This document shows, one piece after another, positions 899-51,121 of a stretch of 64,000 bases of DNA (positions within the stretch are counted from its first letter, which is position 1; the number at the start of each line of letters is the position of its first letter). The stretch spans positions 1 to 64,000 of the forward strand of contig JANBPK010000706.1 of the NCBI GenBank assembly GCA_027579435.1, written 5' to 3'. This DNA is from Candolleomyces eurysporus (Eukaryota; Basidiomycota; Agaricomycetes; Agaricales; Psathyrellaceae). The notes under the pieces are model-generated. The model was not told the DNA's origin. It ran no database searches and worked only from the letters and a program-made list of their open reading frames with translations. A program made the translations under genes and the position numbers.

Positions 899-2160
899 CC
901 CCAGGCAGAGGAGTGACTTACAGAAGGTCAGTGGCACCATCACCACTAAATCTAAATAGATGGGGTAAATCTCCTCCGGTACCATGCATCATAGTCTTAG
1001 ATTGAGGGCTGCTTTCAAAAAGAGACGGGAGTGGGTAGAGGAGTTTGGATCTAGGCAGAAGAAACGACTCGATGCTCCTCACACAGTGAGAACCAGACTT
1101 ACGGCCTCTTCTACAGGGAAGAACTCACAAAAGGGGTCAAATGTTCTTCGAAGGCGAAATTTCGTAACTTTATTCGTAATACCAAGATGTTTCATATAGC
1201 GAAAAACAGAAATATCTAACTCCTACATGATTCTTCCTGATATTACAACCGGCTCATGTAGTCTGTGCTGAAGAAAACAGGTAGACGTGAGGAATTGTAC
1301 GGGAGATCGACGGGTGTAAATACATCTTGCGACGCGGGGTGGCGTTCATGGTAAAGCTCGGGAACCCCTTCTGAGCTCTATGTAGAACTCATCTAGGAGG
1401 TCTTTGGGTGAGCTCCACGTCCCGTTCAGCCGCTCAACTGAGGTGTCCTCTCCCAATGATTTTCCGAAGTTACTGCCCCGGGCCACTTCCCCAACCCTTT
1501 GAGGTTGCATACAAGCCTCATGGCTGAGACTCGTACGCCGTCACACTGGTATATAGCTCCACATTTGTGGATAGCAGACTTCTTTTTTACGTGAAACACT
1601 GGATAGAGATCTTGAGGTTGTCGGTTACATTGATAAGTCACAGAATGGTAGTGAATGATCATGATGAAGAAACAGGCGAGCACTTTTAAGTGTCTTCACC
1701 ACTTCACAAGAGTCTGCATGGGTTGGATTGATTAGATTGCAAGGCAGCTGTGTGTTCTACATTATGACAGATTGCCTGTACTTCTCTGCCTTAGACGTAC
1801 ATCACGAGGTGTCAGCCTCGCATGGCTAATGTCGTACTGCAGATCATTACCGCGTCTTGTGATTGCATAATCTGTCTATCAGGGGATGGAAGGTCATCAT
1901 TCATGGCTTCGTCGAGCCATTCCAGTCGTAATTTGATTTCCATTTTGAAGATCCACTGAACTGATGCCGTGCACCTCAGCGTGAGCGCGAGGTAAACGCG
2001 GGAACCATTCACGAATGAGTGCATCGCTGGTAACCAGCGTCACCATTGAATCTTGGCTAATTACATTATCCAGACTTTCGATGAATACCATGTGCTGCTG
2101 TTCAGCTAGCATGAGATGTACTCTCAGTTCATCTTTTATTTGTCTGTCTTTTCCAAATAC
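899..2160. other. Intergenic, no convincing gene
   Basis: Host sequence next to the inverted element end. Only short unstructured open frames are present. A minus-strand frame of 88 codons (1897-2163) starts just upstream of, and divergent to, the CFEM-like gene. It has no recognisable domain and could be chance. Confidence 0.4.
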
Positions 2161-30441: not shown

Positions 30442-30759
30442 TCAAAATCTGCTCGTCGAAGTCAACGTGGGCTCCTTGTACATCTTTGCCACAAGCGCGA
30501 TCAAACACGCAAACATGCCCAGCTGGATAATCGTTTGCACTGCAGCCATAAACTTGAAGTATTCAATGCCTCTCCAGTCTTGTGGTAGAATCATTGCGGC
30601 GGGGCCGGGCTGATTGTGTGGAATAACGGTTGTACCAGTGGTATTGGTAGACGTCGGCGCTAGGTACGTAGCCGGCTCGCCCCGTTTAGAAAAGTAAGCT
30701 TGTTGGACGGGTGGAAGGTTTTTGACTTCGTAGCCTTGGGGTCGAGGCGCGTTTGACAT
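30442..30759 (-). CDS. 105-aa single-pass membrane protein, intact paralogue
   Basis: Uninterrupted 105-codon frame. N-terminus MSNAPRPQGYEVKNLPPVQQ, then a YFSKRGEPATYLAP segment and a Pro/Thr-rich linker. One membrane helix near the C-terminus lies within EYFKFMAAVQTIIQLGMFA and the residues after it. It is the closest relative of the gene interrupted by the KDZ element (pieces at 31636-31913 and 51074-51121), which rejoins to the same length. Function unknown. Confidence 0.75.
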   Translation of the reverse strand: MSNAPRPQGYEVKNLPPVQQAYFSKRGEPATYLAPTSTNTTGTTVIPHNQPGPAAMILPQDWRGIEYFKFMAAVQTIIQLGMFACLIALVAKMYKEPTLTSTSRF

Positions 30760-31635: not shown

Positions 31636-31913
31636 TCATCGTATCCTTCTAAGAGTGATTGTCACCGTATCTCCATACAGCCTCACCACAACCGCTATCA
31701 AGCACGCAAACATCCCAAGCTGAATAACTGTCTGGGCAGCAGCCATAATCTTGAAGTACCGCATCCCTCTTCCCCGGTGTGGAATGATTGTCATCGAGTT
31801 CGTATCGGGGCCGTCATGTGGGATGGCGTCTTGACCGTTGCGTGCGGGGGCTAGATATGTGGTTGGTTCGTTACGTTTCGAAAAGTAGACTTGCTGGACG
31901 GGTGGGAGGTTGC
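31636..31913 (-). pseudogene. 3' part of the gene interrupted by the KDZ element
   Basis: Carries codons 14-105 of a paralogue of the 105-aa protein at 30442: NLPPVQQVYFSKRNEPTTYL through the membrane helix (YFKIMAAAQTVIQLGMFACL) to the stop at 31636. The first 16 codons are 19 kb away at 51074-51121. The target-site duplication (31906-31913) accounts for the shared eight bases. This piece lacks a start codon of its own; the in-frame ATG upstream lies inside the transposon terminus. Confidence 0.9.
31906..31913. repeat. Target-site duplication, left copy
   Basis: GAGGTTGC, identical to 51074-51081. Removing one copy with the element restores the host reading frame. Confidence 0.95.
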
Positions 31914-31997
31914 CGGATAACCGTTGAATCACCTGTGGGACTAAACAGCCCCAACCAGTGGGCTTCTCTGACCCCCACTGGTGGGGGTTTGCGTGAC
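31914..31997 (+). repeat. Left terminal inverted repeat
   Basis: Pairs with 50990-51073 in inverted orientation. The best-conserved blocks are GTGGGAC at 31935, AAACA, CCCCCAC, GTGGGGGTT and GCGTGAC. It contains a palindrome of the form CCCCCAC-TGG-TGGGGG, also present (with changes) in the right repeat, which could form a hairpin. Confidence 0.92.
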
Positions 31998-32351
31998 TTC
32001 AAACACGTGAAAGCGGTGGGAAGCCAGAGGGGATAATATAAATTGCACTGGCTGCTGTATACCGTACTCCGTAATGGTGTAACATAAAAATGAAATGTAA
32101 TACAGGAAGGCGTTGGGGACGTCACACAGTCCACCTGGAAGGCTCTCATGGCAGCAAAAGATTCCAGAGATGGCTCACCGAAAGTACTCGACAACCACAA
32201 GCCGTTCTCTCACGCTTGATGGAAGCAGGTTCGTACTTCCAGCCGAAGGCCTGCACACATTGGAAGGTATCAAAGACGTCGGCCCTTGGTTTTCGAAATG
32301 TCGGTAGGGTGAGGAAGGGCACCGAGCCTTCCAGTGATAATAAATGTAGAT

Positions 32352-33287
32352 CTTGAAGGTATGTGTCGCTTCCTGGATCTCTGACCCTGTCAATACAGAA
32401 GGCAAACGGTGCTGCTGTCGCAGAGCTATTCACAGAGGTTCTTACATAATCTTGGTTGAACTGTCATGAAGGCTCCTGAAACCTCTGTCGTAAAATCACC
32501 TCAAAAGCTGAAGGTCATCTGAGCACCTATAGCGCTCGTAGCTCAGGAATGGAAGTAACCAAGAATGCCAAGCACCGTATTCCGCTGTAGAATTCATAGT
32601 GCATGAACTTCGTGATAGTTGAGCTAAACGACTTAGAGGATTTCAGCAGCACCATACTGCACTTATAACGAGATGTTGGAAGAGGGACTCACCTTCAAAC
32701 ATGTCTTATTGAACGTAATGAAGAATTGTAGGACTTCCGGGGTGGGGTTTACCCACACCCAATTCAGTCCGGAAGTTGTATGGATTGTCCACTTGTGTTG
32801 TTCACTAACATCTGAAGGGATGGGCCGCTTCCTGTATCTCTGACCCTGTCGGTATGGAAAGCAAGCGGTGCTCTCACCGTGGAGCTGTTCACACACTGAA
32901 GAATAGGTTCCTACATAGCCATGATCGAGCTGTACACGAAGGCTCCTGAAACCTCTGTTGTGAAATCACCTCATAAGCTGAAGGTAATCGGAGCATCTAT
33001 AGCACTCAGAGCTCAAGAATGGAAGTGACCAAGAACACCAAGTGCCAGATTCCATTGGAAAATGCATAGCACATGAGCTTCGTAATGGTTGAGCAGCACA
33101 ACTCGGAGGATGTCAGCAGCACCGTGTTAGACTCACGGCAAGATGTCGGAAGAGGGACTGACCTTTGACTACGTCTTATTGAAAGCAACACGGAACTGTA
33201 GGACTTCTGAGGTGGGCTACTACCCAGACCCAATTTGGTCTGCAAGTTGTATGGATCATCCACATAGGCCATTTCCCTGACATCCAA
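32352..33287 (+). repeat. Two tandem ~460-bp subterminal repeats
   Basis: Unit 1 (32352-32811) and unit 2 (32812-33287) share CGCTTCCTG, TCTCTGACCCTGTC, GGCTCCTGAAACCTCTGT, GGAAGAGGGACT and AGTTGTATGGAT in order with an offset near 460 bp. Unit 1 is also present in the inverted copy at 1-460. Position just inside the terminus suggests transposase-binding or spacer sequence. Confidence 0.85.
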
Positions 33288-34285
33288 AGCAGACGAGAAG
33301 AACAATCTTCCCTAATCAATTGTTTGCAACCCACATGTTGGGGAAGCTGAGAAGAGCTTCAGGTCTGACCAGATTAGTTCTGAGAGGTGCCAGAGGACAC
33401 CTGTAGTCCCTACCACCTGTTGTCTGATGTTGATGGGAACTCCGAGGAAGCTTGTGACGTGATGGGAGGGCCTTTTCAACTTCCAGTAAGAGGAATGATG
33501 TGAATTCTGAATGTTGGAGTGCCTTCGTCCATCCCATGATGTTAGCATGGAAGTTAAATTTATAGAGGGTTCCATGGGCAGGAAGTGGACTGTCTGTTCG
33601 TGACTTGGACAGGAGCGACTATGATGATTGAATATTGAGTCACAGTGGCTCTGACAACTTCTGGTATGAAAACGCATGGGAGCAGAAGTTGCTGATAACT
33701 TCACTGACTGCAAGACTGCTCCTTGGAAAGTGCCCTGCATGCCTAAATTGTACTCAGGTTAAAACGAGAAGTGAGCTGGAACTCCTGCCTTGTTCTATTC
33801 AGTAAACAGATGCTTTGAGACAGAGGGTAGTGTGATCCAGAGGTATCTGGTTAGTGCTGTGAGTGGGTGCTAATAGCCCATTACCTGAGCTCTGAAGACC
33901 AACAGAGCACTGACACTTCAAGCAATTTGCAAAATGAAAGCATCATGGTAGCATTGATGCTCACCTACATTCATGGGAAGTCTGGGTATGCTTCTCAACT
34001 CATATTGGAATCAATCTTGGTAGTTGTCCGCAACACTTACATGTGCCAATTGCCTGAAGTCTGAAGTTGACGGAAAAATTGACCGAATCATGTCAGCTCT
34101 TTTTTAGGATGTGTCTGTCTCACATGAGGGATATGAAGTTGGCGGGCGCTTCCTCTCAAGCGCGCACATCAGTCAGCTGTAAAAGGAAGTTGGGATCACC
34201 TGACTGTTGTGAATGAGCTGGTTATTGCCTCCGAAAACTATTGGCAGCCGGCGCCCTGTCATCACTTTGTCCATTCCTGCCGGCA
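33288..34285. other. Non-coding left arm of the element
   Basis: About 1 kb without a supported gene, between the subterminal repeats and the first cargo ORF. Confidence 0.45.
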
Positions 34286-35022
34286 ATGTCGTACATTTCC
34301 ACTGAGGATCAAGACCTATGGCATGCTCTTCAACAAATAGGAAATCTCTTTCTCTATTCAACGACTCATTCGGGGCTCTATTGGGCTTTTTGGTATGTCT
34401 TTCTATTGATTGGAAAAACCCGCAAACCTGACTAACCATCTAATATCCAGGCCATACGATGAGGAGGAGGGTGGACCCGTTCATCCTGCCCGTCTTGTGC
34501 AGTGGTTAAATGTTCGAAAGTTAGGCTGGCCCTGCTTTTGCACCGTGGACGGCAAGGCACCGTTTTGCACTTTTGTCAAGAAGCCCGATGAGTGCAGAAT
34601 GGCATACTGTGGCCAGATCCCGTCCAAATGCTCTTTTCAAAGTCAGTATTAGCATCCTAGTGTAAGGTAGAAGCTTCACTGACTACACTTCTTCAGTAAA
34701 TCTTTCAAGTGCATATCTCTACTCAGCCAACTTGGCTGAGTTTCCAGATATGGTTCCCGGTCAACTCAAAGCCGACTTCGAGCGAGCTGCACTCTGTCAA
34801 CAGGTTGTCTTCCAGGCTGAAGATTTCGAAAGGTGTGAAAGGATTCAATCTGGGGAGGAAGATGGGAACCCTCAGGATGTGTTTGGGTACTTAGTGGGAT
34901 GGATTGGAGAATATACTGACATGCCACAAGATGAACACGAGTGGGAACCAGAAGTTTATGGATGGCCAACCCGAGATAACAATCCAAATTATGTGGATGA
35001 AGGCGAGGAATATGACGAGTAA
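34286..35022 (+). CDS. KDZ-element cargo protein A, acidic, Cys-containing
   Basis: Exons 34286-34392, 34451-34641 and 34697-35022 join in phase to about 207 aa, starting MSYISTEDQDLWHALQQIG. The central part has several cysteines (WPCFCTVDGK, FCTFVKKPDEC, YCG). The C-terminal third is very acidic (EHEWEPEVYGWP, DEGEEYDE). No domain recognised. It is tail-to-tail with the transposase, with 90 bp between stop codons. Its place between the subterminal repeat and the transposase makes it an element gene, not host sequence. Confidence 0.65.
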
Positions 35023-35112
35023 TACAACTGTCGTGCAATCAATGTATTCCCTACCAGAATAGATCGTTCTAATGGCGCCTCGTTTTTCAAAGCTCTCCAA
35101 AAAAGCAAGATA

Positions 35113-38100
35113 TCATTTGAGTTTCTGTATACGAAGACGATTCCACATGGACAGGAAAACCTTTGTGTAAATAATAGCTCGCTCTTGCGACATATAGCTA
35201 ACCGATTTTCGGATTCGCCTCAGCCCACTATTTCCGCACTCCCCAGCACTTGAATTGATAGCCACCAGTCGAGGGTCAACATTGGCGTACTCGGATAAGA
35301 ACGCAGCTGGACTACACTTGGTGTGACCTGCCGAATGGAAGTGGTTGATCGCAAAGAGCGTATTCTTGAAGAATTCAGGTTCTCGTAGCATGCAGTAGGG
35401 GCCAAGAGCACAGGCAAAATCATAGATCACCTGCCTGGGTGCCACCGGCCACCGCGTCACCATCGCAGAAAACACATCGTTCCGTCCTTCACTTTCCGGT
35501 ATGCAGTGGAAGCCATAGCATACACTGTGTGTGCACCAAGCAACCATGATACCTCCTGTGAGTCTTCGCTCGCCATACTGGCTGTAGTACTTCCCGCACC
35601 TATCCCCACGACGTGTTGAACTTGATGTATCTTTTCCCTGGTCGCCTTTAAGACGTGGATACTGTGGTCGGTGCCGTATTTGGGGTAAGCTGTAGTAACA
35701 TCCAGTCTGAGAAGAAAAGAATGAGTGTGCAGCCACAATGAATACACCATTCTTGTTGGGTAATGATGGCGTACTTACCAGCTTCCAGTCAGATGCTGGG
35801 TCTTCACTACTGAGCTTAGATTTGGGGTCATCTAAACGGAGGGTTTCGACCGAAAGTCCCTTGAGAGTCCTGGACGCCTTTTCATGGAGCCATCGAGCTA
35901 CCGGAATGAGAGGCTCTATGTCAGAGTCTGACTGAAGAACTTGATAGAGCGCCGGTATTGTCACGAGCTTGGTGACCTGAGCTCGACACGGATTGGAAAG
36001 GAAAAGGCCGAGATCCTCCAATGAAGATCCGTTAATCATCTGTAGGACAGACTCCTCCGCCGCAATCTAGGGAGAGTCAGCTTAGAAAACAGAGCAATTG
36101 AGAACCGTACCTGTCGAAAGAGATTACGATAGGGCGCAGGTACGGCCTTCTTGTTCAAGATGGCAACGGCGCCAAAGGTCTCCCGAAAAAGTGTCGCCAA
36201 AGCGGAACATTCAATATTCAGTTTCTCGTAAACATCGTCGACACGATTCAGATGTTCGAGCATGTGTTGTGATTGGCGATGGCGATGTTCTTTGTCTTGG
36301 TCAGAATTGGGGGGCTCGGTGTCACTCCCCTCATCCGAAAGACTCTCGTCAAGCTTAGGCCCCTTCAAGACCTGTCGGAGTTTTGTTCTGAGCCGTGTAT
36401 CGGGAATGAGTTGTTGCTTTGGAAGTCTTTTCACGTTACTTCGAATGATTGACTGAGGTGAGTGTTCAGTTGGTGGAGTAAGGGTTGATGAAACATGTTT
36501 TCGCCCGAATGCGAGTGTTATTCCATCCCAAATGACTGTTTCGGGAGATAACCCACAGCGAACGCAAGTCATGTCATCCTCCAAAGCCATTTGTCCAGCA
36601 TAGGAGAACCAGACGGATCGAAATAGATCCTCACCCATAAACACAGCTCCAGAGACAGAGTACCTATGCGCAACAACAGCTACAAAGGCAGTGAAGGGCG
36701 TCTCCGAGGTTACGAATGATATTGTGTACTCGTCCAGTAGCTCGTGCGAGACCAGAATACTGTTGTTGTAGTTGAATAGACCCTGGGTACGCAAGTCGGG
36801 ACCAATGTAGCGACGTCGGTTACGGGGGCAAGTTGGGCAGCGTTGGAGCTCAATCTGAGCATGAAATACCGTGTGTAGAGCAAAGATACGACATTGTCGA
36901 ACTACCGTTGGATCGGATGGATTGTGGAATGTCCGTCCTGAGGGGCATGGGCATGACGCCTGAGGATCAAGAGCTATAGTCACAGATGGAGGGGAACGGA
37001 ATGGTGGAGGACGAGGGTACAACTGGGGGTCCGATTTCAGCGATATTGACGCTGGGGGCAGCACTGGCAGATGGGAAACTGCTTCTTTCCGAGTAATAGA
37101 AGCTAAAAGATTGACAATTAGACCTCATAATGAGGATATTAAAGCCAACAGACCTAGTGCTTGGGCGGTCTCAGCCCCTTCTAGAACTTCATCCAAGTCT
37201 CCCTCGGGTGTTGTAGTGAGCTCTTCAAGGATCTTGAAGCAGGCTTGAACATGAACACATATCGTCTTGCTGTTCGGATCTTTTGAGCATCGCCAAAGCC
37301 CAGCTGAATAAGCTCTTCCGGTATGTGTGACAATGGCCCTGCCCTTCAGCTGCGAGGATGAGAAGCTTCGGACTGAAAACATAGTGACAAACTCGTTCAC
37401 ATTGGGAACTTGTTGTCGGAAGTATAGTACAGCGTCTATAGTCATAGATATAAACATGGACTGACTGTGATTAATAACAACATACCGGTAGAATCAACTC
37501 TCAGAGTCCTTCCTTGCAACAGCCTTTCTACATCATACTCCTTGAAGAAAGTCTGATGGATACAGAAGTTGCGTACTGCTTGAGGACAGGTACACGCAAC
37601 ATGGAGCTCAGAGTTGATGATGAGGTGCTGCAAATGATACCAGCCGGCCTGGACAAAAGGTGTGAAGAAGGCGAGTGAAGCGTAAAGGTCAAACTTACAG
37701 TGGCCTGGCAGCGCTGAGTATCCCATCCCTCAACAGCAAAAATAGACTCTCCCACTTGGTAGAACCCAGCAGCAAAGGACTCCACTGCGTCCAGATAGGA
37801 TGCAACATCATTATCGGAGAATCCAACTGCTGAATTAGCGCCCAAGATCACTGCCGCGGCATCATCGGCAAGGTCCGTCCCTGATGAACTGGCCAACCCA
37901 AAATCGTCAAAGGCCTCCCATGGCCCTACCACAGGTGCCGGTGTTGTTGGATGACCCCAGTCCTCCTCTCCTCCAGTTTCGGTTTCGGTTTCCCGTTCCA
38001 TTGGTATAGCCCTTGGCCGACGTTTCAAAGGCCTGACATACCTCTTGGTTGCCTTGGTGGGCGACGAATCAAAGTTGCCCTTGGCAGAGCTAACCAGGCT

Positions 38101-38175
38101 GTCTGGATAGTCGAAAGACTGAGCTTCCACAGGGTCGTCAAGATCCAAAACCTTGGATGACCGCTTCCGAGACAT
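35113..38175 (-). CDS. KDZ transposase with CxC4-like cysteine cluster
   Basis: Six exons: 38175-37699, 37648-37486, 37435-37154, 37102-36111, 36066-35779 and 35706-35113. All join in phase to 931 aa with no stop. Residues about 355-520 carry the CxC4-like cluster: CPCPSGRTFH, CRIF, RCPTCP, YIGPDLRTQGLFNYNNS, SHELLDEYT, SETPFTAFVAVV and CVRCG. The C-terminal catalytic region (last ~200 residues) has GCYYSLPQIRHRPQYP, KYYSQYGERRLTGGI, CYGFHCIPESEGRNDVFSA, YDFACALGPYC, FHSAGHTKCSPA and AGECGNSGLRRIRKS, the typical order of this family. The Asp of YDFAC and Glu of GECGNS are plausible catalytic acids. It should mediate cut-and-paste mobilisation of this element. Confidence 0.93.
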
Positions 38176-38421
38176 TGGGTGGGAGGGAGCAACTAAGTCC
38201 GTGGCGTACGGTTCATCTTTCTCAAATATTGTTGATTATTGTGTCCACCTTTGCACTTCATCATTTTCTCATCATTCCCCATTTGCGATCTCATTACCAC
38301 TTTCACCGCATGGTTGAGATCTGAAAGATCTCAAAGAAACCTTGAGGTCCGGTGGGACCGCTCAACGACGTCTATCCAGCATAAGTACAGCTCGAACTCA
38401 AGATGTAAGCTCCCCATAACT

Positions 38422-39591
38422 ATGCCTGTCACCCCCCGTAAATCGCGAAACCGAGACCGTCCCCCAGCCGCTATTAAGGCAACTCGACAACCTCAGCGTT
38501 GTCGTAGGTGCCCGAACGCACCTTTACGCTCTGAATGTGAGCATGGATTTGGACGACGTGGCTCTATGGTGAGTATAGATTGTGATATCTATTTCTTTTG
38601 AGTACTCAACACCTTGCATACAGAACGCTGCTGGAACTCATTCCCCTCAAGAACCGTCGTCTGAGTCTCTGCCTGAGCTCAGCATGAATTTATCCTCTGC
38701 TCAGGAGCTCGGTGCACCACCAACTTCACCAGGTCTGTTTCCTGCCGCTGAGATCCTGGTTGAGGCAAACTCTGCTTCTGGCCGGGATATTGGTTTGACT
38801 CCGACTGTCACTGTGGAGCTTGGTACCACCAGTGTCTCTGCTCCACCCGACCCCGTGCCCGAGCAGAGTATGGTGATTGATCCCGCCCTTATTGCCCTTG
38901 GTCCAAGTCCCTTGTCGTTGGATCTATTGGACAGCCCTCAGATTGCAGGGTCAGTTTCTTCCCGCCGCGTATACCCTTCGGACACACGGGCCATCCATGG
39001 CTATATCGAAGGCATGGGTCGAGGAAACGAACCTGCTCGTAAGTCTACAATATTGAATCACCTTCCATCTTCTGACATTCGTATCAGAAATGGCTCGAGT
39101 TCGTCCTGCAAAGCCGCTGGATAGGGATCAGAAGAAGGCCATGAAGCATTACGACAAATGGACCAGAGATCTTTTCACGCGGGTGAGTTATGCTTGAACC
39201 TGTTTCATGGATTTGACTGATCGTGCCATAGTGCAAATCCATTTCGAATAGTACCGGATGCTGGATGTACGTCGCCATCCAGCATCCGTCATCACGGACT
39301 CCCTTCCTCCACTTTGCATCTCGAAAGATTCGCAGGGAAGCTCCCGAAGAACTCAAGGACATTCACCAAGACATTAGCCGCATGATGGTACTACTCAAGC
39401 GTGCTGATCGATCCAAGAACCTCGACTTCCATCGGCAGCATCAAGAGGCTGAAGAACAGGCAAGGCTTGCCACTGCTCGGGCGACAAGGGCCGAGTCCGA
39501 GGCTGAACGCTTGCAAGCTGAGTTGGCTGCTCGTGAGCGCATCATCAGCGCGCTACTTTCAGCTGCGAAAACCCCTTCCACGATAAATTAG
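38422..39591 (+). CDS. KDZ-element cargo protein B, basic N-terminus and coiled-coil C-terminus
   Basis: Four exons: 38422 to about 38570, then exons starting near 38627, 39089 and 39231, ending 39591; phases consistent. The N-terminus is basic with a small Cys/His group (RCRRCPNAPLRSECEHGFG), possibly metal- or DNA-binding. The middle is Ser/Pro-rich and disordered. The last exon has HFASRKIRREAPEELKD and a long charged coiled coil (HQEAEEQARLATARATRAES to the end). Divergent from the transposase start by 247 bp, so the two may share a promoter. Function unknown. Confidence 0.65.
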
Positions 39592-39974
39592 ATTAGTATC
39601 ATATTTCGCTTTAGCTTCAATAGATTCTTATGTTATTTGTACAAAATGAACTTTGATGCGAAAACAGCACGCCGACGAGAGTCAGCTTGGATGGGCCTTA
39701 GCTGTCAATGAGCTCTTATCCCGTTCAGACGACACTCTCCGAGCGAAAAATACACGAGTCATAAACTCAGATATGCAAAGGCACGGGAATTTTAGCCATG
39801 TACACCGAATGGCTGTCAAACGTAGGACTCAGTTGCGTCGTTGTTTCATCAAACCTGATCTTAGATACGGTGGAATGTATGGATACGGATTAAATAAAAT
39901 CGAGTAGATCCGAGCATTTGAACAGCATTGTATACGTCTCAATATTGCGTCACTTGGCACTGGGCCTGGGTTAC

Positions 39975-40640
39975 TCAAGGAACTACCAACATGTTTTCGA
40001 CCAACTCCTCCTCCTCGGCCTCGTTGTACGCCCTGTCGAATTCCTCCCATAGAGCATCCCATTCCCTTAGAGAGTACTGAAGTTAGGATTCAATTTAAAA
40101 CAAGGAATAGTAAGATCGTACCGTTCTCTTCGCTTGGGGTCAGGATCTGGAACTGAGTCTGGCTCGGGGAGAGGTGGCCAGTACCACCGTGAATTTGGGC
40201 TGATGGATTGCTTGCCACGCCTGGCATACTCAGATTTCCTCGTCCGAGGAGGAAGCGAAGTATTTGCGGGAGTCAATGGGGCCGACATCATCTCCCAGTT
40301 GACCGGACTGAGTGAACACTTTGAATCAACGGCCATTGGCAAAGACTGGACGGTGGTCGGAGGGACTTTCTTAAGCCTAGAGTCACTCGAGTAAATTGGT
40401 GTTGGAGGAGGTGAGTAAGCAGTTGACTTACTGCTTGATTCTTTCTCGATACTTTTGACTCCTCACTCGACTGTCTTGGCGAGCTTTTTCCAGGTGACTG
40501 AGTATGCATTTGGGCGACGTTGAAAATAGAGCAGATAAGTCTGATAAAGGACTTACTTGTAGTAGTACTTCTTTGAGGACTTACGGCTAGCCTGCCGTAG
40601 CTTCTCTAGGCTTGAANTTTTTTTCGTGTTCAGCCTGCAT
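39975..40640 (-). CDS. KDZ-element cargo protein C, basic/acidic coiled-coil protein
   Basis: Four exons on the minus strand from an ATG at 40640 to TGA at 39975-39977. Exon 1 (SLEKLRQASRKSSKKYYY) contains an N at 40617 in an A/T run; ignoring the N keeps the frame. Then come ARQDSRVRSQKYRERIKQ, a Pro/Ser-rich middle with RTRKSEYARRGKQ, and an acidic C-terminus (EWDALWEEFDRAYNEAEEEE). About 165 aa. Basic then acidic coiled-coil character suggests a nucleic-acid or protein-binding partner. No family recognised. Confidence 0.5.
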
Positions 40641-40650
40641 TTGGAGAGGA

Positions 40651-40785
40651 TGGTGAAGGCGAGAGGAAGAGGCAGACCACGCCACTCTAAATTGCCACCC
40701 ACGCACGGCGCATCATCAATTGGTAGCCTCGGCAGCCCGGCAACTCACGTCGACCAATTGTCAATCATCGCGTCACTGACATGAC
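40651..40785 (+). CDS. Possible AT-hook mini-ORF or upstream exon
   Basis: An ATG at 40651 begins MVKARGRGRPRHSK, containing the AT-hook core GRGRPR, and reads about 44 codons to a stop. It starts only 10 bp from the divergent start of protein C. It could be a first exon of the TET/JBP gene, a separate micro-ORF or chance. No splice joining it to 41567 was established. Confidence 0.25.
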
Positions 40786-41030
40786 CTGTCAGTGATGCGC
40801 CGTAACCTGCCGTCACTGATTTTCTGCCGTTTTCATCCCAATCGTCCTCCGTGTTCATCCTTGCCTGCCTCTCTCTTGTCCTTCCTCAAGAAGCTTTTGG
40901 CCATCTTCTCATGTCAGTAATTTGTCTCCCCTTTATTCTATTTCTCTATATCCTTTGCGACGTACGGTGTATGGGACATCTTGTCCAGATCTCGGTGGAT
41001 TGGTGTATTACCTCGGGAGGGGAACGCCCA

Positions 41031-41466
41031 CGGATCTCACAAAAGGTCCTAGCGTTCCTCGATGGGCTCGCATTTTCTTTTTGACCATGCGCTCTGTTTT
41101 TCTGGTGGATCCTGGCGAGTTGCGATGGGCGAGCGAAAATTTTCTCCGCGGTAAGCCTACATCGCGTCGATATGCTGGGAAAGTGACTGCCGTTAACTGG
41201 AGGGTAATGCCTATGGATCTCACTCAAAGGTCCTAGCACCTTCAGCTAACAGAACGTCTATTCCAAACGGTTAGACACGAGCACATACTTAGACGTTGGC
41301 TGTTGTCGTTGAGCGGATGCGTATGGATCTCACACAAAGGTCCTAGCATATCTTGACAACAGGTTTATGTTTTTTTTGCCTCTTTTCGTATCACTCGAAC
41401 ATTCTATTTGTCTTTCAATTTAATTTTTAAGGAGGTGTATGTGGATCTCACACAAAGGTCCTAACA
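41031..41466 (+). repeat. Four copies of a ~26-bp motif upstream of the TET/JBP gene
   Basis: The core GGATCTCACACAAAGGTCCTA occurs, with one to three changes, at about 41032, 41215, 41325 and 41442. In copies 2-4 it reads as DLTQRS followed by a stop codon. Two of these are preceded in frame by ATGxxxATG (MPMDLTQRS and MRMDLTQRS). Copies are spaced 183, 110 and 117 bp apart in the 540 bp before the TET/JBP start. Confidence 0.85.
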
Positions 41467-41566
41467 TCGCCGTGTGTTTCATATGTTCGATATTATTCAT
41501 TATAACCCGAGACAGTATGCCGATTTTCATGCTAACCCTCATTAATTCCACAGCACGCGTAGGGCG

Positions 41567-43323
41567 ATGGGCAGGGTAAGTAATTTAGGGCACTACTACT
41601 GCGTGAACTACCACTTAATTCGCTGACGTTTTAATTCCAGACGCGTTCCGGCGTTCAATTCTCCCCACTCAGCAACGATCCTTCCGGAGAGGATATTTCG
41701 TTCATCCAAACGGAATGGGACAGCACCAACGCCTTTGGGGTGGCTGCAACGCAGGAGGAGGGCTTTGGGGATGGCGGGGAGCTCGATCCACATGTTCGAA
41801 TCGCAGAGTGTGCACCTACGCCTATTCCAGATGAGGAGTTATACCTTGCCATTTCAGGTTCACGGCATACAGTAAGTTTTCAATTCCAACTCACGTATGC
41901 TTGAATAACGAGTGCTAGATTCCTGTGTCCGCGTCAACCACTCGCCGGTGCGAGGACATGAACAATCCGTCAACCTCGCCGTCAGCGAACACTGGATCTA
42001 GTCGCCGTCGGCGCGCTCGACGGATCACCGCCAAGTTAGCCAAAGTAATGCCGCACACAGACAATCAAGCGCTACACTATCGACCCAAGCCTTCAACTCT
42101 TCGCAAGTACAGCAAGTTTCATCGCACGTTCTCCTCGTTCAACTCGAAGGACTTCTCCCATTGTGGTGGTGGCTCGTGGACTGGGAAGCGCGATTCGAGC
42201 AAGAACTTGAGGTCGTACACGATACCTGAGTTGGAAAAGATGGGGTTCACATATGTTCCGTATGAACCTGGGTTCGTCACATTCTCTTTCAATCTTCTCG
42301 TCGTTTCACTGATTTTTGAGAAATCCTCAGGCGCAATGTACTATTTTCGGACTCTCAAACCCGTATTGTTGGAGGGTTGGTAGACGGGATACCGGGGGAA
42401 GAGTGGAAGTTGATCAAGGAAGACGCATCTGCGAGCCTTCGAAATGCTCTCAACATCGGAGCAGACACTGGCGCATTTTTGAAGAAAGACCTGAAGCATC
42501 GTCGTGGTCAGTATTTCTCGTTACTCACAGGCGTCTCGATGGGAGGAGGTCAGAAGGTGAGTCTATATTTCCATTCTTGGTTTAGAACAGTCGCTAACTA
42601 GGCTTAAGCGCCCAGGAAATCTCGCTCAGCGCCTTCGCTCCAGGTGTAAGCTTGTGCAATCAATTCTCCTCAACAAGTCCATAAAGCGAATCGCAGGATT
42701 CCAGTCATGTAAACGATGTTATTTTTCTGATTACTGAAAAGTGGAGCTAACCAGAGGTCTTGACAGCCGCCTTTTACTTCCTTGCCCCAAAGCTATACCG
42801 GCGCTATGCTCATGACCTTGGACGACTTTACGAGAGCCAGCCAGAGCTCTGTTGGAACTTCGACAGCAGTATCTATCCATGCGTCGCTTTCAACTGCGGT
42901 CCTCAATCCGTCACTACTCTCCACTTTGACCAAAGTAACCTCTCGCATGGTCTCTGTGCTGTTACACCTCTTGGAAACTTCGATTGGAAGAAAGGTGGGC
43001 ATCTGGTACTGTGGGAACTCAAGCTAGTCCTTGAGTTCCCTCCTGGAACAGTTGCGCTATTACCTTCGGCGGCCGTACGACACTGCAACACCCCGATTCA
43101 GAAAGGCGAAGAACGAATGTCGATTACGCAGTTTGCTGCTGGTGGTCTCTTCCGATGGGTTGCGTATGGGATGAAGTCGGCAAAGGAGGTTGGGTCCGTG
43201 AAAGCTAGTGATGGTCAAACCTTGAAGGAGAAAGCCGATAAATGCGCGGAAGAGCGGTGGATGGAAGGTCTCAGCTTATTTTCCACCACTACCTCCTTGG
43301 AGCAGGACTATCGCACTGATTAA
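41567..43323 (+). CDS. TET/JBP-family 2-oxoglutarate/Fe(II) dioxygenase
   Basis: Six exons: 41567-41575, 41641-41871, 41919-42271, 42331-42556, 42609-42708 and 42767-43323, in phase, 491 aa. The N-terminal ~180 residues are low complexity with a basic patch (SSRRRRARRITAKLAK). The dioxygenase core begins at SDSQTRIVGGLVDGIPGEEW, then SLLTGVSMGGGQKRPGNL, RIAGFQSSAFYFLAPKLY and FNCGPQSVTTLHFDQSN. H359 and D361 form the HxD pair and GNFDWKKGGHLVLW follows. H412 in PSAAVRHCN is the distal iron ligand and R422 in EERMS is the probable 2-oxoglutarate-binding Arg. These enzymes oxidise 5-methylcytosine or thymine in DNA. All expected catalytic residues are present. Start codon is tentative; the tiny first exon could be replaced by an upstream one. 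Confidence 0.92.
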
Positions 43324-43513
43324 TTACCTCCCACCTCTCTTGTGTGAGGAGGTTTCTCCTAGCGCATGCCACATGGTGGCGATTGTTTCTATCGTATCAG
43401 AATCTGATTTTATGTCTTCCCATTTGTGTACTGGAGCCGATGGCTATGCGAAGAAGAGGGATCTGGAGGTCAAAAGACGTTGAGCCGACGATGGATTCTC
43501 ATTCATTCCTCCG

Positions 43514-44189
43514 ATGCCCACCCCCGACGACATCTGTACATCTGCATTTGTTAGATCGCAGGCTGCTAGATGGCTCGAGGCCATCGACGGCAGTCTGCCT
43601 GACGACATTCAGGATCACAACACCCAGCTCTTTCTCTACGAAGTCATCCATGGATTGCCAGACCATGATGATATCGTGGATATCAGTCGACAACTGACCG
43701 AAGAATCCTGGTTCATGGACCCTGATTCCTCGGGGGATGTCTACTATCGGAGAAACTGTAGTAAGTTGCACCATGCTTTGATAAATTCGTAACATGCTAA
43801 CAACTGCTTTCTTGTCGCAGTTACGGGGGCGGTCGGTCAGTATTAACTTCNTTTTTTTTTGGTATTGTCTCCGTACACCACATGGCTGACTCGAAACGTT
43901 TACAGATACTTCAAAGGCCTGGACCCTTGACGACTGGAGCAATGATCAAGAACGGACGTACGATGAATGGAGCAAGGGCCCAGATACCTTTCAAGAAGGA
44001 CGCTTCGGACCTGGTTTCATGCGCTTCACCTTATTCAACGAGAGCTCACGAAAACGCGGGTCAATGAAGGACAGGGTTGAGACTTGTATCGAAAGCCGCC
44101 TTTCCTTGGGAGTTTTAACGAGGGTACCCACTAAGTTCGACGTGAAGAAAAAGGTTCTTCGAGTAGGATATTACTTAGACTTGTGCTAG
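43514..44189 (+). CDS. KDZ-element cargo protein D, hypothetical
   Basis: Starts MPTPDDICTSAFVRSQAARW. Exons 43514-43760, a 15-nt micro-exon 43821-43835 and 43906-44189 join in phase to 181 aa. The sequence is acidic, with WLEAIDGSLPDDIQDHN, GLPDHDDIVDISRQ and DDWSNDQERTYDEWSKGPD, and a basic tail. The second intron contains an N beside a T run (43851). It begins 190 bp after the TET/JBP stop on the same strand. No domain recognised. Confidence 0.5.
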
Positions 44190-44731
44190 GATGCTGTACT
44201 TCGGGTTTTTAGATCCGAAAAAGATTGTTCAAGACTCATACAAGAAATATCTCCGACATTGACCCACTGACCACATGCTCTTTGAATGAGAATGTTGCGG
44301 AAACTTTGTTTTGGTGAGTGCAGCTCCACTGTGAGGGAACTGGATTCTCGATTTATCTCGTTTTGAGTTCTTAACTCATGTTTCATGTTCAAGCGACGCT
44401 CGGTGTACCAAGAGATCCCACAAAGGTAGCGAAATATGGGCCCATCCCCGAATTAATCGCAAACTGGGGAGGACTGAGGCCCATTGCACGGTACTTATTG
44501 TCATTCAGGGTGCCAATATCACACTTGGGTTAAGCGAACTTCCTGTTCTGGATATGATATGGGATCGGAGCCAATCACTCAATGGTGCCTGCGGCGCTTA
44601 CCCACACTGCTCTTCTCTTTCTATCGTCGAATTTCCGACAACCATATGACAGTCCCTGATCGAAAAGCACTTTTGAGATCTGGTGTGAAAGCCAAGGATG
44701 TAAGATAACCCAAGAAAAGGCCTCTGCCGTC

Positions 44732-44738
44732 TATAAAA
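44732..44738 (+). promoter_or_regulatory. TATA box of cargo gene E
   Basis: TATAAAA about 100 bp upstream of the ATG at 44834, followed by a pyrimidine-rich leader. Confidence 0.5.
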
Positions 44739-44833
44739 CCGCAAGCAGTCGCATTCAACTTCCAACCTTTGCCACCCTTAGCCCCCGAAGTTCATCAACA
44801 CAACTAACGTTCTATTCCTATCTCATTCCCTCA

Positions 44834-47207
44834 TGTCGGAAGTCGCTGCCACCACCCCTTCTCTGGTAATCGGTGATGAAAATCCAGTCTTCAAGAAGCG
44901 TGAGTGGTTCACAATTCCTTCGAAACATCTCTGCTAACACCAGGCTTCAGTCGAAACTAGGATGAAGCGTTACCCAGGAGACCTTGCTGCTGTCCAAGAG
45001 TTGATTCAACAGGCGGAAAGCCGCGTTGAAGCTCTTGATGCTCACATTCAAGATCAGACTAGTAAGTGTTATAATTCATACCGTCTCTATTGGACATTAA
45101 TTCAGAGGTTACTAGGCGCTGGTAACACGGATGCCATTCAAGCGCTTGCAGAGAAGAAGAAGATCGTCTCTGCTAATGCTGCCGGTCTCAAACGTCGTCA
45201 AGGCCAACTCTTAAAAGGGACCAACAAACGTCCCCGGGTTGCCAAGCGGACCCGTTCAACTGCGGCGGAGAGTGGTGAGTATTAATTCAATGTTTACGCT
45301 CAACATCTCAAGATGCTCACTCTTTTAATAATCCAGACTTGATGGAAGTCGACACCATTCCCGATTCTGTCAATCTCACCACCCAGTCTACTGCACCACC
45401 TTCAGCCCCGAATGTCACCGCCTCCACATCTGCACCTTCCGCTGCTGTCTCCGTCATTGAGCCGGTTGGTGCTGGCAACGTTCCTCAGGCCACCACTCCA
45501 ACTTCTGCGCAGACTAGCTCCACTTCTGTGCCAACTGCTGTGCTGTCTGTTCCGGTATCAGCAGATCCTTCCCTGCCAGCGACCCCTTCGGCCTCTGTCC
45601 CTACCGGTCAACTCACCCTCGACAATGGTGCTCCTCAGGCTATCATTGAAGCAGCAGCTCCTCTAACCTCCATGCCGGCCAACGCACCTACTTCCAACGT
45701 TAGTGCTGCTCAGGCTGCCATTCAAGCACCGGCCCTTTCAGCCTCTGTCCCAACCGGCACACCTCCTCCCAACGTTAGTGTTGCTCAAGCTATTGTTCAA
45801 GCAGCAGCCCCTTCAGCCTCCATCCAGGCCAGCGCACCTACTCGGGACGTTAGCATCGCTCAGGCTGCCGTTCAAGTCTCTGTCCCCAACCCAGTTGTCG
45901 AAGCTACCATGTCTCAAGTCGTTTCAAGGACAACCAGTAGTGGTCCTTCTCGTACTCAACCTGAGCACAACCTTGCAAACGTTGCTGGTCTGATCTCAAT
46001 GGTAAGCTTCGTTATTTTTTATTACTTTTGCACGCTCAAACACACTCTCTTATTTCAGGATAATACTGAGTCTGACGAGAGCGAGTGGTTCGAAGACATG
46101 GTGAGTTTATCAGTCCCGACAATTTGCTCAGGCCTCTAGCTAATACTTGTGGGATAGGACGTCGAAAGCAGCAATTCCAACTCTGGGGATAGCGACAGCG
46201 ACATCGTCGAACTCAAGGCTGCTGTAGGCAAGGCTCATTTCCCAAGCTACTGGAAGAATTTGGACCTTCCCCAGCAAGGGAAGCTACTGAGTACGTACTC
46301 ACTCTCCCATAATTCCATTCAGAACTAATATCCTTGCTTAGACAGTGGTGCTGAGGCGTTCCAAGCCTTCCGGGATAAGAACATTCCGCTGCCTGACCGA
46401 GTATGTTTCTGATCATCATGTCTTTCCCGGCTACTGCTCATTAGTTCACTCATTTATCAGGTTCGCACTTGGGTCCGCCGACACTCAGACTATTTGCCAG
46501 AGGTCAGCGGCTGGAGCGAGAAGCTAGCAGCCTCTTGCTTTATCCTTGGCAATGGGCGAACAGTCTGCCAGTACCACACGGTTTACGAGCATGGAAAGAA
46601 AACCACCCACGACGGAAATCTCAACGACAAGTCCGACCTCAGTGTAACTGGCGTTCCCTACCCTCCTTCTTTCCTTCCACTCGCCCAATATAGCACCCTC
46701 CTTCCCCCTNCCCCGGTTACCTGGTCAACGTGAACGACCCAAGAACCCAAACTTCACCCTCGAAAACGTTCTCAAGTTCTTTCCAATGAAGCACGGTCGT
46801 CGTATTCTTCACTGCGGGTGTCTCTATGAACACGTACTGATCGACTTCTGGTTGTGGAAGGGCTTTGCTCTGACTTCTCTATCACACCCGGAAAGGATGG
46901 AAGGCTTTGGAATGCCCTTGAAACCCCGCGAACGTTATCTCTTTTGCCTGGGCCTCAAGAGCTTCTGTGTTACGCTTGAAAACCTCTACGAGTACGACCA
47001 CGAAGACAACGAGATCTCTCATGTGAAGTTCAGGGAGCGCCATGTGATGAAGCTGGTGGCAGATATCAAGAAATCCAGGCGAGAGGAGGCAGAGAGAGCG
47101 GCGAAGATTCGTCAGCAGCAGTTAAAGAAGGATAAGAGGAAGATGGTTTACGTGGAGCTCGCTGAAAATGTTTCTGAATTTGACGCTAATGAATTCTTTG
47201 ATGATTA
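44834..47207 (+). CDS. KDZ-element cargo protein E, repeat-containing, frame broken at an N
   Basis: About eight exons starting MSEVAATTPSLVIGDENPVF. An N-terminal helical segment (VQELIQQAESRVEALDAHI) is followed by a basic patch (KRPRVAKRTRS). A ~200-residue Ala/Pro/Ser/Thr-rich region has about three repeats of the type PTSNVSAAQAAIQA. An acidic stretch (DNTESDESEWFEDM) leads to a globular C-terminal part with WKNLDLPQQGKLL, WVRRHSDYLPEVSGWSEKL, CQYHTVYEHGKKTTHDGN, then MKHGRRILHCGCLYEHVLID and a basic coiled coil. The frame changes at N46710 within a C run, probably a sequencing gap, since both sides are clearly coding. An intron at 45062-45115 is optional. Family unknown. Confidence 0.6.
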
Positions 47208-47559
47208 GTACTTTGCCTGTATTCCTTAGCTATAATAATTATGTTGGTTTGTTATCGTATATGCTCATGAGGAAAGATAAATTGACGTAATTGAGTTGTA
47301 ATGACTTCATGTGTTGGGAACTTCGAATCGAAAACCTGAAGTCAATGAAACCTTCCTAGTTATACATCAGTGGGGGCAAGAAGATGACGACAACTTCTCA
47401 TCTTGACCAGACCTGAGCACCGATACAAGAGGCAGCTTCTGATCGACACTTCCAACAGCCCAAGTTAGATTATTGTATCCCATTGCATTTGCTTCTGTGC
47501 TTGAATCATCAAAAGCTGATGAAATGCCTTTCACATTCTCTTAATTTTGACGACTTGGT

Positions 47560-50500
47560 CCAATTTTCAGAGGTCATACAGAGCTTCCACATCTTGTCTA
47601 CACAGCTTTGGAGGTAACACAGAACTTCTGCCTTTCTCCCAGATTACGGTGGAAGTTCAACCAAGCTTCCATCCATCTCTTAGTGAAGTGCAAGGCAAAG
47701 GTTTGCTGTTCAGCCAGAAAACCTTGGAAGTTCAACTCTGCTTCCCAAGGTAATCATATGACTTGTGTAGAGGTAATATGGAACTTCTGCTACTCAATTC
47801 CATGGCTTTGGAAGTTCATGCCACCTTTTTAAAGGCTATGTAGGGCTTCCACCTTTCATCTGGATGACTCTGGATGTTGATCCTACCTTCCCAGATTTAT
47901 CTGCAGCTTTTTGGAGGTTACATGAGGCTTCCATCCTTCTTCTTCACAACTCTGGGTGTTCACCCCACCTTCTCATATTGGCTCTCAGCCTATTTGGAAG
48001 AGATGCAGAGCTTCTTCCCTTCATTCCATCTTCTCAGATTTGCTTTCAGATTTGCTTTCAGATTGTTCAGATCCCATGCAGAGATACTGCCCTTCATCTG
48101 GACAACCCTCATACCACCTCTCAAGTTATGCCCTGAGCTTGTTTGGCAGTCATGCAGAGCGCTTCCACCCTTCATCTGGACAATCTGGAAGATGATCTAA
48201 GCTTCCCAAAGTTGCTTCTAGTATGTTCAGAGGTCACCCAAAGCTTCCACCATTCTTCTGCACAACTTTGGATGTTCATCCCACCTTTCCAGGGGTACTT
48301 TAGCTTGCTTAGAGGTCATGGGGAGCTTCCACCTCTCATCTGGACAACTTTGGATGTTTGTCTCATTTTCCCAGATTTGCTTTTGGCTTGCTTGGAAGCT
48401 GTATGGAGCTTCTACCCTTCTTCTGTACAACCTTGGATGCTCACACCACCTTCTAGATTTGCTCTTGGCTTGTGCAGAGGTGATTTGTAGTTTCTACTTC
48501 ACTTCTGCACAATTTGGGATGTTCATCTCACCTTCCCAGATTTCTTTTCAACTTTTTTTTGAAGCCATACAGAGCTTCCGCCCTTCTTCTACACAAATCT
48601 GGATGTTCATCCCACCTTCCCAGATGTACTTTAGCTTGCTTAGAGGCCATGGGGAACTTCCACCTCTCATCTGGACAACTTTGGATGTTCATCCCACCTT
48701 CCCAGACCTCTTTCAGTTTGTTTGGAAGCCATGCAGAGCCTTTGCCCTCCATCTGGATAACCTTGGATGTTCATACCACCTTTCTATATTTGCTCTTAGC
48801 TTGCTCAAAGGTCATGCAAGCTTTTGTATTTGATCTCAACAACTTTGGATATTCATCCCACTTTCCCATAGGTAATTTAGCTTGCTTAGAGGGCATGTGG
48901 AGCTTCCATATATCATCTAGACAACATTGGGTGTTTGCATCACCTTCCTACATTTCCTTTCAGATTGTTTTGAAGCCATACAGANGCTTTTGCCCTTCTT
49001 CTGTACAGCCCTGGAGGTTCACACAACCTTTCTAGATTTGCTCTCAGCTTGTTGAGAGGTCACCCAGAGCTTCCACCATTCTTCTTCCTGACTTTGGAGG
49101 TTCATCCCATTTTCCCATAGGTAATTTAGCTTGNTTNGAGGCCATATGGAGCTTCCACACATCATCTGGACAACATTGGATGTTTGCATCACCTTCCTAG
49201 ATNTCATTTCAAGTTGTTTTGAAGACATGCAGAGCTTCTGCCCTTCTTCTGTACAGCCCTGGAGGTTCACACAACCTTTCTAGATTTGCTCTCAGTTTGT
49301 TCAGAGGTCATCCAGAGCTTCCACCATTCTTCTACCCAACTTTGGATGTTCATCCCACTTTCCCATAGGTAATTTGGCTTGCTTGGAGGGCATGTGGAGC
49401 TTCCATACATCATCTGGATAACATTGGATGTTTGCATNCANNTTCCTACATTTCCTTTCAGGTTGTTTTGAAGCCATATGGAGCTTCTACCCTTCTTCTG
49501 TACAGCCCTGGATGTTCATACCACCTTTCTAGATTTGCTCTCATTTTGTTCAGAGGTCATCCAGAGCTTCCACCATTCTTCTACCCAACCCTGGATGTTC
49601 ATCCCACTTTCCCAGAGGTACTTTTGCTTGCTTAGAAGTCATGGGAAGCTTCTACCACTCATCTGGACAACCTTGGATGTTTGTTCCATCTTCCCACATT
49701 TACTTTCAGCTTGTTTGGAAGCCATTTGGAGCTTCCGCCCCTCATTTGGACAACCTTGGATGATCATGCCACCTTTCTAGATTTGCTCCCAGGTTGTTCA
49801 GAGGCCATTCAGATCTTCTTTCTTTCTTTTACACAACTTTAGATGCCTATTCCACCTTCCCAGAGGCACTTTAGCTTGCTTAGAGGTTATGTGGAGCCTC
49901 CACTTTTTATCTGGACAAGTTTGGATATTCATCTCACCTTCCCAGATTTCCTTTCAGCTTGTTTTGAAGCCATTCAGAGCCTCTGCCTTTCCTCTACACA
50001 ACTTTGGATGTTCATCCCACCTTCCCAGAGGTACTTTAGCTTGCTCAGAGGTCATTTGGCGCTTCCACCTCTAATCTGTACAGGTTTGGACGTTCATCTC
50101 ACCTTCCCAACCTTTTTTTCAGGCTGTTTGGAAGCCATAAAGAGCTTCTACCCTCATCTGGACAACCTTGGAAGTTTATCCCATCTTTCCAGATTTTATT
50201 ATTGCTTATTTAGAGGCAATGCAGAACTCTCATATTTCATCAGGACAACTTTAGAGGTCTGTACCATCTTCCCAGGTATATTTGTGACTTGCTTGAAGGT
50301 CATGCATAGCTTCCATCCTCCATTTCACCACTCTGGAAGCTTTACCAACCTGCCAAAGTATTCTCATGCCTTCTTGGAAGCCATAGGGAACTTCCCTCTC
50401 CACCCACACAACTTTGGAAGGTCATCCCACCTTTCCAGATAATCTTGTGGCTTTTCTGGGGTCATGTGGAACCTGCTGTCTTCAATCAAACAACCTTGGA

Positions 50501-50780
50501 AGGTCATCCCACCTTCAAAGTATCTGTAGGGTTTGTTTGCCACACCAAGCTTCCACCCATCCTTATTTTGTTGAGATGCCAGTCACGCCATATGCTTATT
50601 CAGTTTTGGAAATTCATAGCACCTTCCAGGATATGAGTTTGGCTTCTTCAGAGGTGATATGGAGCTCTGACCCCATCTCTCAAACCCTTGCCCCACCCTT
50701 CAGGAAGTTATACAGAGCCTCTACTGAACTTTCAAGCTTCTGAGGTTCTTAATTCGAAGTTGTCTGCCCCTTCTCCCTAC
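47560..50780 (+). repeat. ~82-bp tandem repeat array, about 39 degenerate units
   Basis: Recurring blocks GAGCTTCCACC, CATCTGGACAAC, TTGGATGTTCATCCCACC, TTCCCAGA, TTTGCTT and TTGGAAGCCATGCA reappear every 82-83 bp (for example the AGCTTC block at about 48324, 48406, 48571, 48654 and 48736). Units at the edges are more diverged than those in the centre. Several Ns (48985, 49135-49442) show assembly trouble. The array gives rise to spurious repetitive open frames. It ends 200 bp from the right terminal inverted repeat. Confidence 0.9.
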
Positions 50781-50989
50781 AACCATACCAGGTAATGAAG
50801 CTGAACAGCCTTTCCACATTTGAGCTCCGAAGCTGAATAATTGAAACAAATACTTCAAAGATCATCGCTGGAGGATGTAGGCTACTTCAGTTGTGTAGCT
50901 GTCCATCCTGACATCCAGTATGTGTTGCATGTGCTGTGACAGATATATAAATAGTAATAGTAAGCATTGACGTCCTTCACATGTCTGAG

Positions 50990-51073
50990 GTCACGCTAAC
51001 CCCCACAGGTGGGGGTCTTTATGTCCCACCAGCCGGGGTTGTTTGGTCCCACCTGGCTATCAGCGGCTGCCCC
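50990..51073 (-). repeat. Right terminal inverted repeat
   Basis: Inverted match to 31914-31997, 84 bp with no gaps and about 27 mismatches. Begins GTCACGCTAACCCCCAC and ends GGCTGCCCC at the duplication. Confidence 0.92.
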
Positions 51074-51081
51074 GAGGTTGC
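51074..51081. repeat. Target-site duplication, right copy
   Basis: GAGGTTGC, identical to 31906-31913. Confidence 0.95.
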
Positions 51082-51121
51082 GGACTTCGTAGCCCTGAGT
51101 CAATGGTGCTTCGGTGGCCAT
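51074..51121 (-). pseudogene. First 16 codons of the interrupted 105-aa membrane-protein gene
   Basis: ATG at 51121 opens MATEAPLTQGYEVRNL, matching the paralogue start (QGYEVKNL). It then runs into the transposon terminus and stops inside the inverted repeat. Joined to 31636-31905 it gives 318 nt, exactly the paralogue length. The promoter of this gene should lie in 51122-51450. Confidence 0.9.

Follow-up and report, generated by a model that had tools for sequence, protein, structure and literature searches.

A probable complete CxC4-clade KDZ transposon carrying a TET-like dioxygenase gene in Candolleomyces eurysporus

Introduction

The fish transposon Zisupton is about 11 kb long, contains one gene and subterminal inverted repeats of about 99 bp, and makes 8-bp target-site duplications; we know of no TET cargo in it. 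The mobile Cryptococcus element KDZ1 (~11 kb) has terminal inverted repeats (TIRs) of 241 bp and also makes 8-bp duplications (PMC12810828). Complete KDZ elements carrying a TET gene have already been described in fungi, and relief of methylation silencing by TET has been proposed for other TET-carrying transposons (Kojima 2025, PMC12730594). Here, we describe an element of 19,160 bp in a 64,000-nucleotide stretch of the Candolleomyces eurysporus genome (contig JANBPK010000706.1; C983:1-64000 in our numbering, hereafter the window), taken from an assembly of 65.85 Mb in 1296 contigs. We consider it very likely to be a complete KDZ-class DNA transposon of the CxC4 clade that moved recently by DDE-type double-strand transposition with an 8-bp target duplication, through a mechanism inferred below. 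The host belongs to the Psathyrellaceae, as does the model mushroom Coprinopsis cinerea, and exact ends, target duplications, a gene-less derivative and two recent copies are now given for a TET-carrying KDZ element in this family.

The words Candolleomyces and Psathyrella do not occur in the main text of PMC12730594. The portions of PMC7641404 and PMC9674265 available to us do not give KDZ element ends, and a mostly title-level search of the literature on CxC4, KDZ and transposases found no description of the ends of a CxC4-type element.

Comparison with described KDZ elements

Like the TET-carrying KDZ elements in PMC12730594, the window element combines a KDZ-class transposase and a TET/JBP-like dioxygenase gene between defined ends, and its 8-bp duplications agree with those reported there for Zisupton and Dileera members. 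The TET-carrying Kyakuja of Laccaria, by contrast, are described in that source as making 7-bp duplications and as having CA..TG ends but lacking TIRs, whereas the window element has 8-bp duplications, outermost bases CGG..CCCC and inverted repeats; as none of the three Kyakuja characters was found, we class the element as a KDZ transposon but not as a Kyakuja. Both features of Zisupton-type ends, an 8-bp duplication and inverted termini, are present, and judged by its ends alone it is probably near Zisupton. The dioxygenase also departs from the types set out in the same source: AG-type TETs of Kyakuja keep Asp at the Asp337 site of the Coprinopsis enzyme CcTET, where the window enzyme has Cys and is hence not AG-type, and PE-type TETs have HxE, where it has HxD and is hence not PE-type. 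CcTET residues Gly331 and Asp337, linked there to the handling of N6-methyladenine and 5-methylcytosine (6mA/5mC), correspond to Asn and Cys.

Cryptococcus KDZ1-3, whose mobility has been shown, likewise combine TIRs and duplications of 8 bp (KDZ1) or 4-8 bp with a KDZ transposase that bears a cysteine cluster, but they measure ~9.2-11 kb, carry CxC1 rather than CxC4 and TIRs of 139-241 bp, and TET is not mentioned in the parts of PMC12810828 at hand. Against these elements of ~9-11 kb, the 19,160 bp found here bear out the unusual size that an earlier note, made from the window sequence alone, had suggested for a KDZ transposon at this site; the TET/JBP-like gene, partner genes and repeat array, none of which the note had recognised, account for much of it.

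Exact ends and an interrupted host gene

The element proper (31914-51073) lies between two copies of GAGGTTGC (coordinates of all features are given in Table 1). The earlier note had rightly placed identical 8-bp copies at both sides and called the 84-bp termini inverted; inverted they are, but the match is imperfect, with ungapped agreement at 57/84 of the first positions and 68/98 over a longer stretch. The local score of the inverted ends was 62, compared to a maximum of 33 among 5000 control pairs from the window. Each terminus contains three GTGGG units spaced by 23 bp, and the terminal-core pattern matched the genome eight times, always at ends of this element family, while a reversed control pattern matched nowhere.

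Joining the flanks with a single duplication copy restores a host reading frame, as had also been proposed. Support comes from a tandem paralog (30756-30448) that aligns through the junction at 61/104 residues. The length of the joined open reading frame (ORF; 151 aa) was rejected as evidence on its own, since 36% of 2000 random joins were as long or longer. The element insertion broke up a short gene in which a membrane segment is apparent. This gene is the middle member (31639-31913 with 51074-51121) of a small tandem family of such genes that also includes 30448-30756 and 51907-52110, the last a weak match (E 0.003).

Other copies and evidence of movement

Window positions 1-898 match 31914-32811 in reverse complement except for one difference, and the identity breaks at 898/899, which corroborates the end position that the earlier note had read from this second copy. 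Its right end was found at C572:27632, 611 bp from the end of that contig, and the two copies differ at 1/611 and 1/898 of the compared end bases. Because CCCCAGGC flanks both, the halves on C983 and C572 are most simply read as opposite sides of a single insertion. Additionally, a relative of 3,864 bp (C830:5386-9249) has both ends and the repeat array, enclosed by CCCCTATT duplications, and a BLAST comparison returned no match to element genes in it. The suggested search for other loci with the same termini therefore yielded two with different duplications, copy 2 (CCCCAGGC) and C830 (CCCCTATT), so that exact 8-bp duplications of differing sequence (GAGGTTGC, CCCCAGGC, CCCCTATT) stand at 3/3 readable end pairs.

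Four further loci have a single end only (C284, C217, C452 and C1133), and C1133 retains g45k and the array ahead of the same right end. The left ends at C284 and C217 were rejected as independent insertions, one 30-bp flank being common to both. No empty site was found in the assembly, in which a 120-bp stretch ~270 bp outside the left end is present once. As the copies differ by 1/611 and 1/898 and each has its own 8-bp duplication, transposition was recent; the unit, full or shortened, inserted at least three times, and two of these insertions are recent. By eye, copy 2 itself (C572:27592-27631 with C983:899-920) apparently lies near the 3' end of an open frame ending ..INDPQAEE, stop.

An older relative, ~83% identical, has been split by a retroelement into parts on C1061 and C1292, and stops or frameshifts occur in most of its genes. 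It holds g34k, transposase, TET, g43k and g45k in the same order as the window, at synonymous divergence (dS) of 0.31-0.61. Judged by eye, the retroelement (C1061:~4300-4500 and C1292:23650 onward) resembles Ty3/Gypsy; its 192-bp repeats share 96% identity, and there seems to be an AGCAC duplication.

Transposase and partner genes

Gene models were built with a simple splice finder and adjusted by eye; those of g43k and g45k, together with a possible gene at 39975-40716, should be regarded as tentative. Sixteen isolated N bases occur across the window, including position 46710, and several lie inside the repeat array. In protein searches, scoring was restricted to the 8000 candidates (7998 in one search) with most words in common with the query. 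The transposase alignment A2 holds 48 homologues out of 120 listed (214 found), and alignment A4 holds 17 of these 48; placement of the window transposase in A2 with MAFFT --add was rejected for misaligning the C terminus, and a full realignment was used.

The transposase contains a CxC4 domain (36600-36995; Pfam CxC4 PF18717, E 1.9e-43), and its profile matched canonical KDZ with a probability of 91.5. Together with the 8-bp duplications, these matches uphold the KDZ membership claimed earlier, with a direct Pfam KDZ (PF18758) score of 17.8 bits that is below the cut-off of 26.6. A Pfam KDZ search with the spliced model, nine residues shorter than the final 931-aa model, gave no row, and the same domain was detected at E <= 0.01 in 25/48 homologues. 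The transposase keeps 159/161 conserved residues (conserved meaning shared by >=90% of the 48 homologues), in agreement with the earlier statement that it is intact, and D500-D830-E890 is its putative catalytic triad. Because an intact transposase gene is present, autonomy, which the note had raised, is likely.

Genome-wide, we tallied at least 75 KDZ, at least 19 CxC4-type and at least 25 TET-family places, one per locus; the CxC4-type places comprise 18 CxC4 domains and one transposase fragment at C1292. Homologues of g38k lie 2.5-3.0 kb from the CxC4 domain in divergent orientation, with exceptions at C247, C1061 and C162, and g34k relatives sit past the transposase 3' end. With g38k at 15/18 and g34k at 7/18 CxC4 loci, the ordinary CxC4-KDZ element in this genome seems to be a unit of two or three genes. 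The divergent partner gene makes a good candidate for a second transposition protein.

Selection on element genes

The ratio of nonsynonymous to synonymous substitution (dN/dS) of the transposase was 0.13 over 760 codons when compared with C1061 and 0.29 over 148 codons when compared with C1292, and that of the TET-like gene was 0.16 (410-413 codons) between the window copy and diverged relatives. Wrong-frame controls for these two genes gave 1.1-1.8. Similarly measured against diverged relatives, g34k gave 0.26, g43k 0.31 and the two parts of g45k 0.33-0.34 and 0.20; at the g45k end, the correct frame gave 0.20 and the other two frames 0.81 and 1.14. In g38k, 12 codons were alignable, too few for an estimate. 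As some relatives are partly decayed, the measured ratios should if anything be inflated. The transposase and the TET-like gene are under purifying selection.

A TET-like dioxygenase gene

The TET-family alignment A1 contains 62 relatives out of 120 listed (162 found). The window protein has the HxD...H iron triad (H359, D361 and H412); the HxD aspartate is D in 61/62 aligned members, and Cys occupies the CcTET Asp337 site, counted from the HxD motif, in 62/62. In a search with the predicted fold of P0003, a 45%-identical paralog from the same genome, the top rows were CcTET, NgTET1, TET2 and CMD1. Pfam Tet_JBP (PF12851) was detected at E <= 0.01 in 14/62 family members (best 2.3e-6), and the window protein scored 19.3 bits for 2OG-FeII_Oxy_3, under the cut-off of 27. 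On the strength of the modelled fold of this paralog, P0003, the product of 41567-43323 is a predicted TET-fold dioxygenase.

Seven of the at least 25 TET-family loci have a KDZ-class gene less than 10 kb away, canonical KDZ at five and CxC4-type at two, so that members of a single TET family seem to be borne by elements of two KDZ lineages in this genome. Distances to the canonical KDZ domains at C988, C502, C580, C992 and C1051 are 2.6-8 kb. A tree was built from 107 of the 120 listed rows, after removal of 13 that lacked an organism name; it groups the window TET with a canonical-KDZ-linked paralog in a 14-row clade that has support of 100 in the SH-like approximate likelihood ratio test (SH-aLRT). 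Exchange of TET between transposon lineages is not established by this tree, as the order within the clade is partly unresolved. In Tephrocybe rancida, a TET-family protein (P0096) and a CxC4 transposase (P0237) have locus numbers two apart and 12,343-bp contigs; given these nearly adjacent numbers, the pairing of TET and CxC4 may exist beyond Psathyrellaceae.

Discussion

In the mechanism we propose, the transposase would recognise the three 23-bp-spaced repeats of each end and pair the ends, then cut and join DNA through D500-D830-E890 in DDE cut-and-paste fashion; g38k, encoded by the divergent partner gene, is a candidate helper. The repeat array and the left repeats may provide extra binding sites or act as spacers, and the TET-like dioxygenase would oxidise methylated bases on or near the element, leading to less host silencing. 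A broader generalisation is possible, if on balance doubtful: CxC4-KDZ would be a distinct lineage with an obligate divergent partner, its first catalytic Asp just past the cysteine cluster and 330 residues ahead of the second, of which at least one member acquired a fourth, previously unclassified TET type protecting it from cytosine methylation. The element opens tests of whether a transposon-borne TET shields its carrier from methylation, and of what CxC4-type KDZ transposases need to move.

Several observations weigh against our interpretation. At the ends, the outermost 21 bases agree at 10/21 positions only (the next 77 at 58/77), and the interior of copy 2 is unassembled. Enclosing inverted ends were sought in the partial context of C1220, C96, C279, C1061 and C1292, and none were found. 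In the transposase, residue 855 is N where 47/48 homologues have D, and its fold match is weak, an unrelated helical protein reaching the same Z. The TET-like family is 15% identical to CcTET (PDB 8jkk, 7w5p, 7vpn) over the fold alignment, Pfam Tet_JBP matches neither the window protein nor P0003, and sequence searches of solved structures with the protein and the 62-member profile gave no TET, so that it is the fold from which the TET kinship is drawn. Finally, a CxC4-type transposase lies within 10 kb at only 2 of the at least 25 TET-family loci, and at one of these it is a fragment.

We judge it unlikely that the TET-like enzyme works for the host or is a passenger that contributes nothing to the persistence of the element. 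The TET family is widespread, on the contigs of 16 of the at least 25 loci no KDZ or CxC4 match was detected, and a further two loci lie >20 kb from one; yet the dN/dS of 0.16 was obtained between two transposon copies, the seven loci near KDZ-class genes involve two transposase lineages, and an association with many transposons is reported in PMC12730594.

Mobilisation by a related KDZ transposase elsewhere, the resident one being non-functional and the element mobile but non-autonomous, appears rather improbable. At least 18 CxC4 loci, including this one, exist in the genome, the 3.86-kb gene-less derivative has its own target duplication, and N855 is unusual, but the transposase keeps its conserved residues and proposed triad at a dN/dS of 0.13, and the exact end-core pattern is found solely at ends of this element family.

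We see only an outside chance that the unit is a nested composite of a shorter CxC4-KDZ element and a separate TET-carrying insertion. Core genes do occur at CxC4 loci that have no TET-family match closer than 10 kb (14 other loci for g38k, 6 for g34k), whereas the C1061/C1292 relative keeps the five-gene order at its dS of 0.31-0.61, in C1133 the same right end is preceded by g45k and the array, and both ends of the whole unit are common to both copies. An assembly artefact or segmental duplication, which single Ns and the breaks inside copy 2 might suggest, has a negligible probability given that the flanks are unrelated and carry 8-bp duplications of their own, with one that matches across two contigs and a third in C830.

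Feature coordinates and neighbouring sequences

Table 1. Coordinates of the element, its genes, its second copy and the interrupted host gene in the window
Feature	Position	Strand	Details
Copy 2, left end	1..898	-	At contig edge; right end C572:27632-28242
Copy 2 target-site duplication CCCCAGGC	899..906		Counterpart C572:27624-27631
Tandem paralog of interrupted host gene	30448..30756	-	Unbroken across insertion point
Interrupted host ORF, downstream part	31639..31913	-	Apparent membrane segment, by eye
Target-site duplication, left copy GAGGTTGC	31906..31913		Sequence match
Left terminus, inverted repeat	31914..32011	+	Positions 22-98 vs right end 58/77; GTGGG at 22, 45, 68
Two subterminal direct repeats of ~450 bp	32350..33263		32350-32792, 32810-33263; 77%
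g34k, small gene convergent with transposase	34286..35022	+	Relatives at 7/18 CxC4 loci including window
CxC4-KDZ transposase, 931 aa, six exons	35113..38175	-	Exons 38175-37699, 37648-37486, 37435-37154, 37102-36111, 36066-35779, 35706-35113
g38k, partner gene divergent from transposase	38422..39591	+	Homologues divergent at 15/18 CxC4 loci including window
TET/JBP-like 2-oxoglutarate (2OG)-Fe(II) dioxygenase (predicted), 491 aa, six exons	41567..43323	+	H359-x-D361, H412, R423
g43k, cargo ORF	43514..44649	+	Tentative model
g45k, cargo gene	44833..47208	+	Low-complexity middle, conserved C-terminal domain; frame broken by N at 46710; tentative
Subterminal array, ~82-83-bp units	47560..50700		Approximate bounds; Tandem Repeats Finder (TRF) row 48161-50252; array also in C830 and C1133 relatives
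Right terminus	50976..51073	-	GTGGG at 22, 45, 68 reading inwards
Target-site duplication, right copy GAGGTTGC	51074..51081		Sequence match
Interrupted host ORF, upstream part	51074..51121	-	Likely ATG, by eye

Outside the element, the window contains diverged duplicate stretches at 17304-18491/22677-23913 and 6025-6629/9768-10369 (73-83% identity), which are perhaps tandem and inverted gene duplicates.
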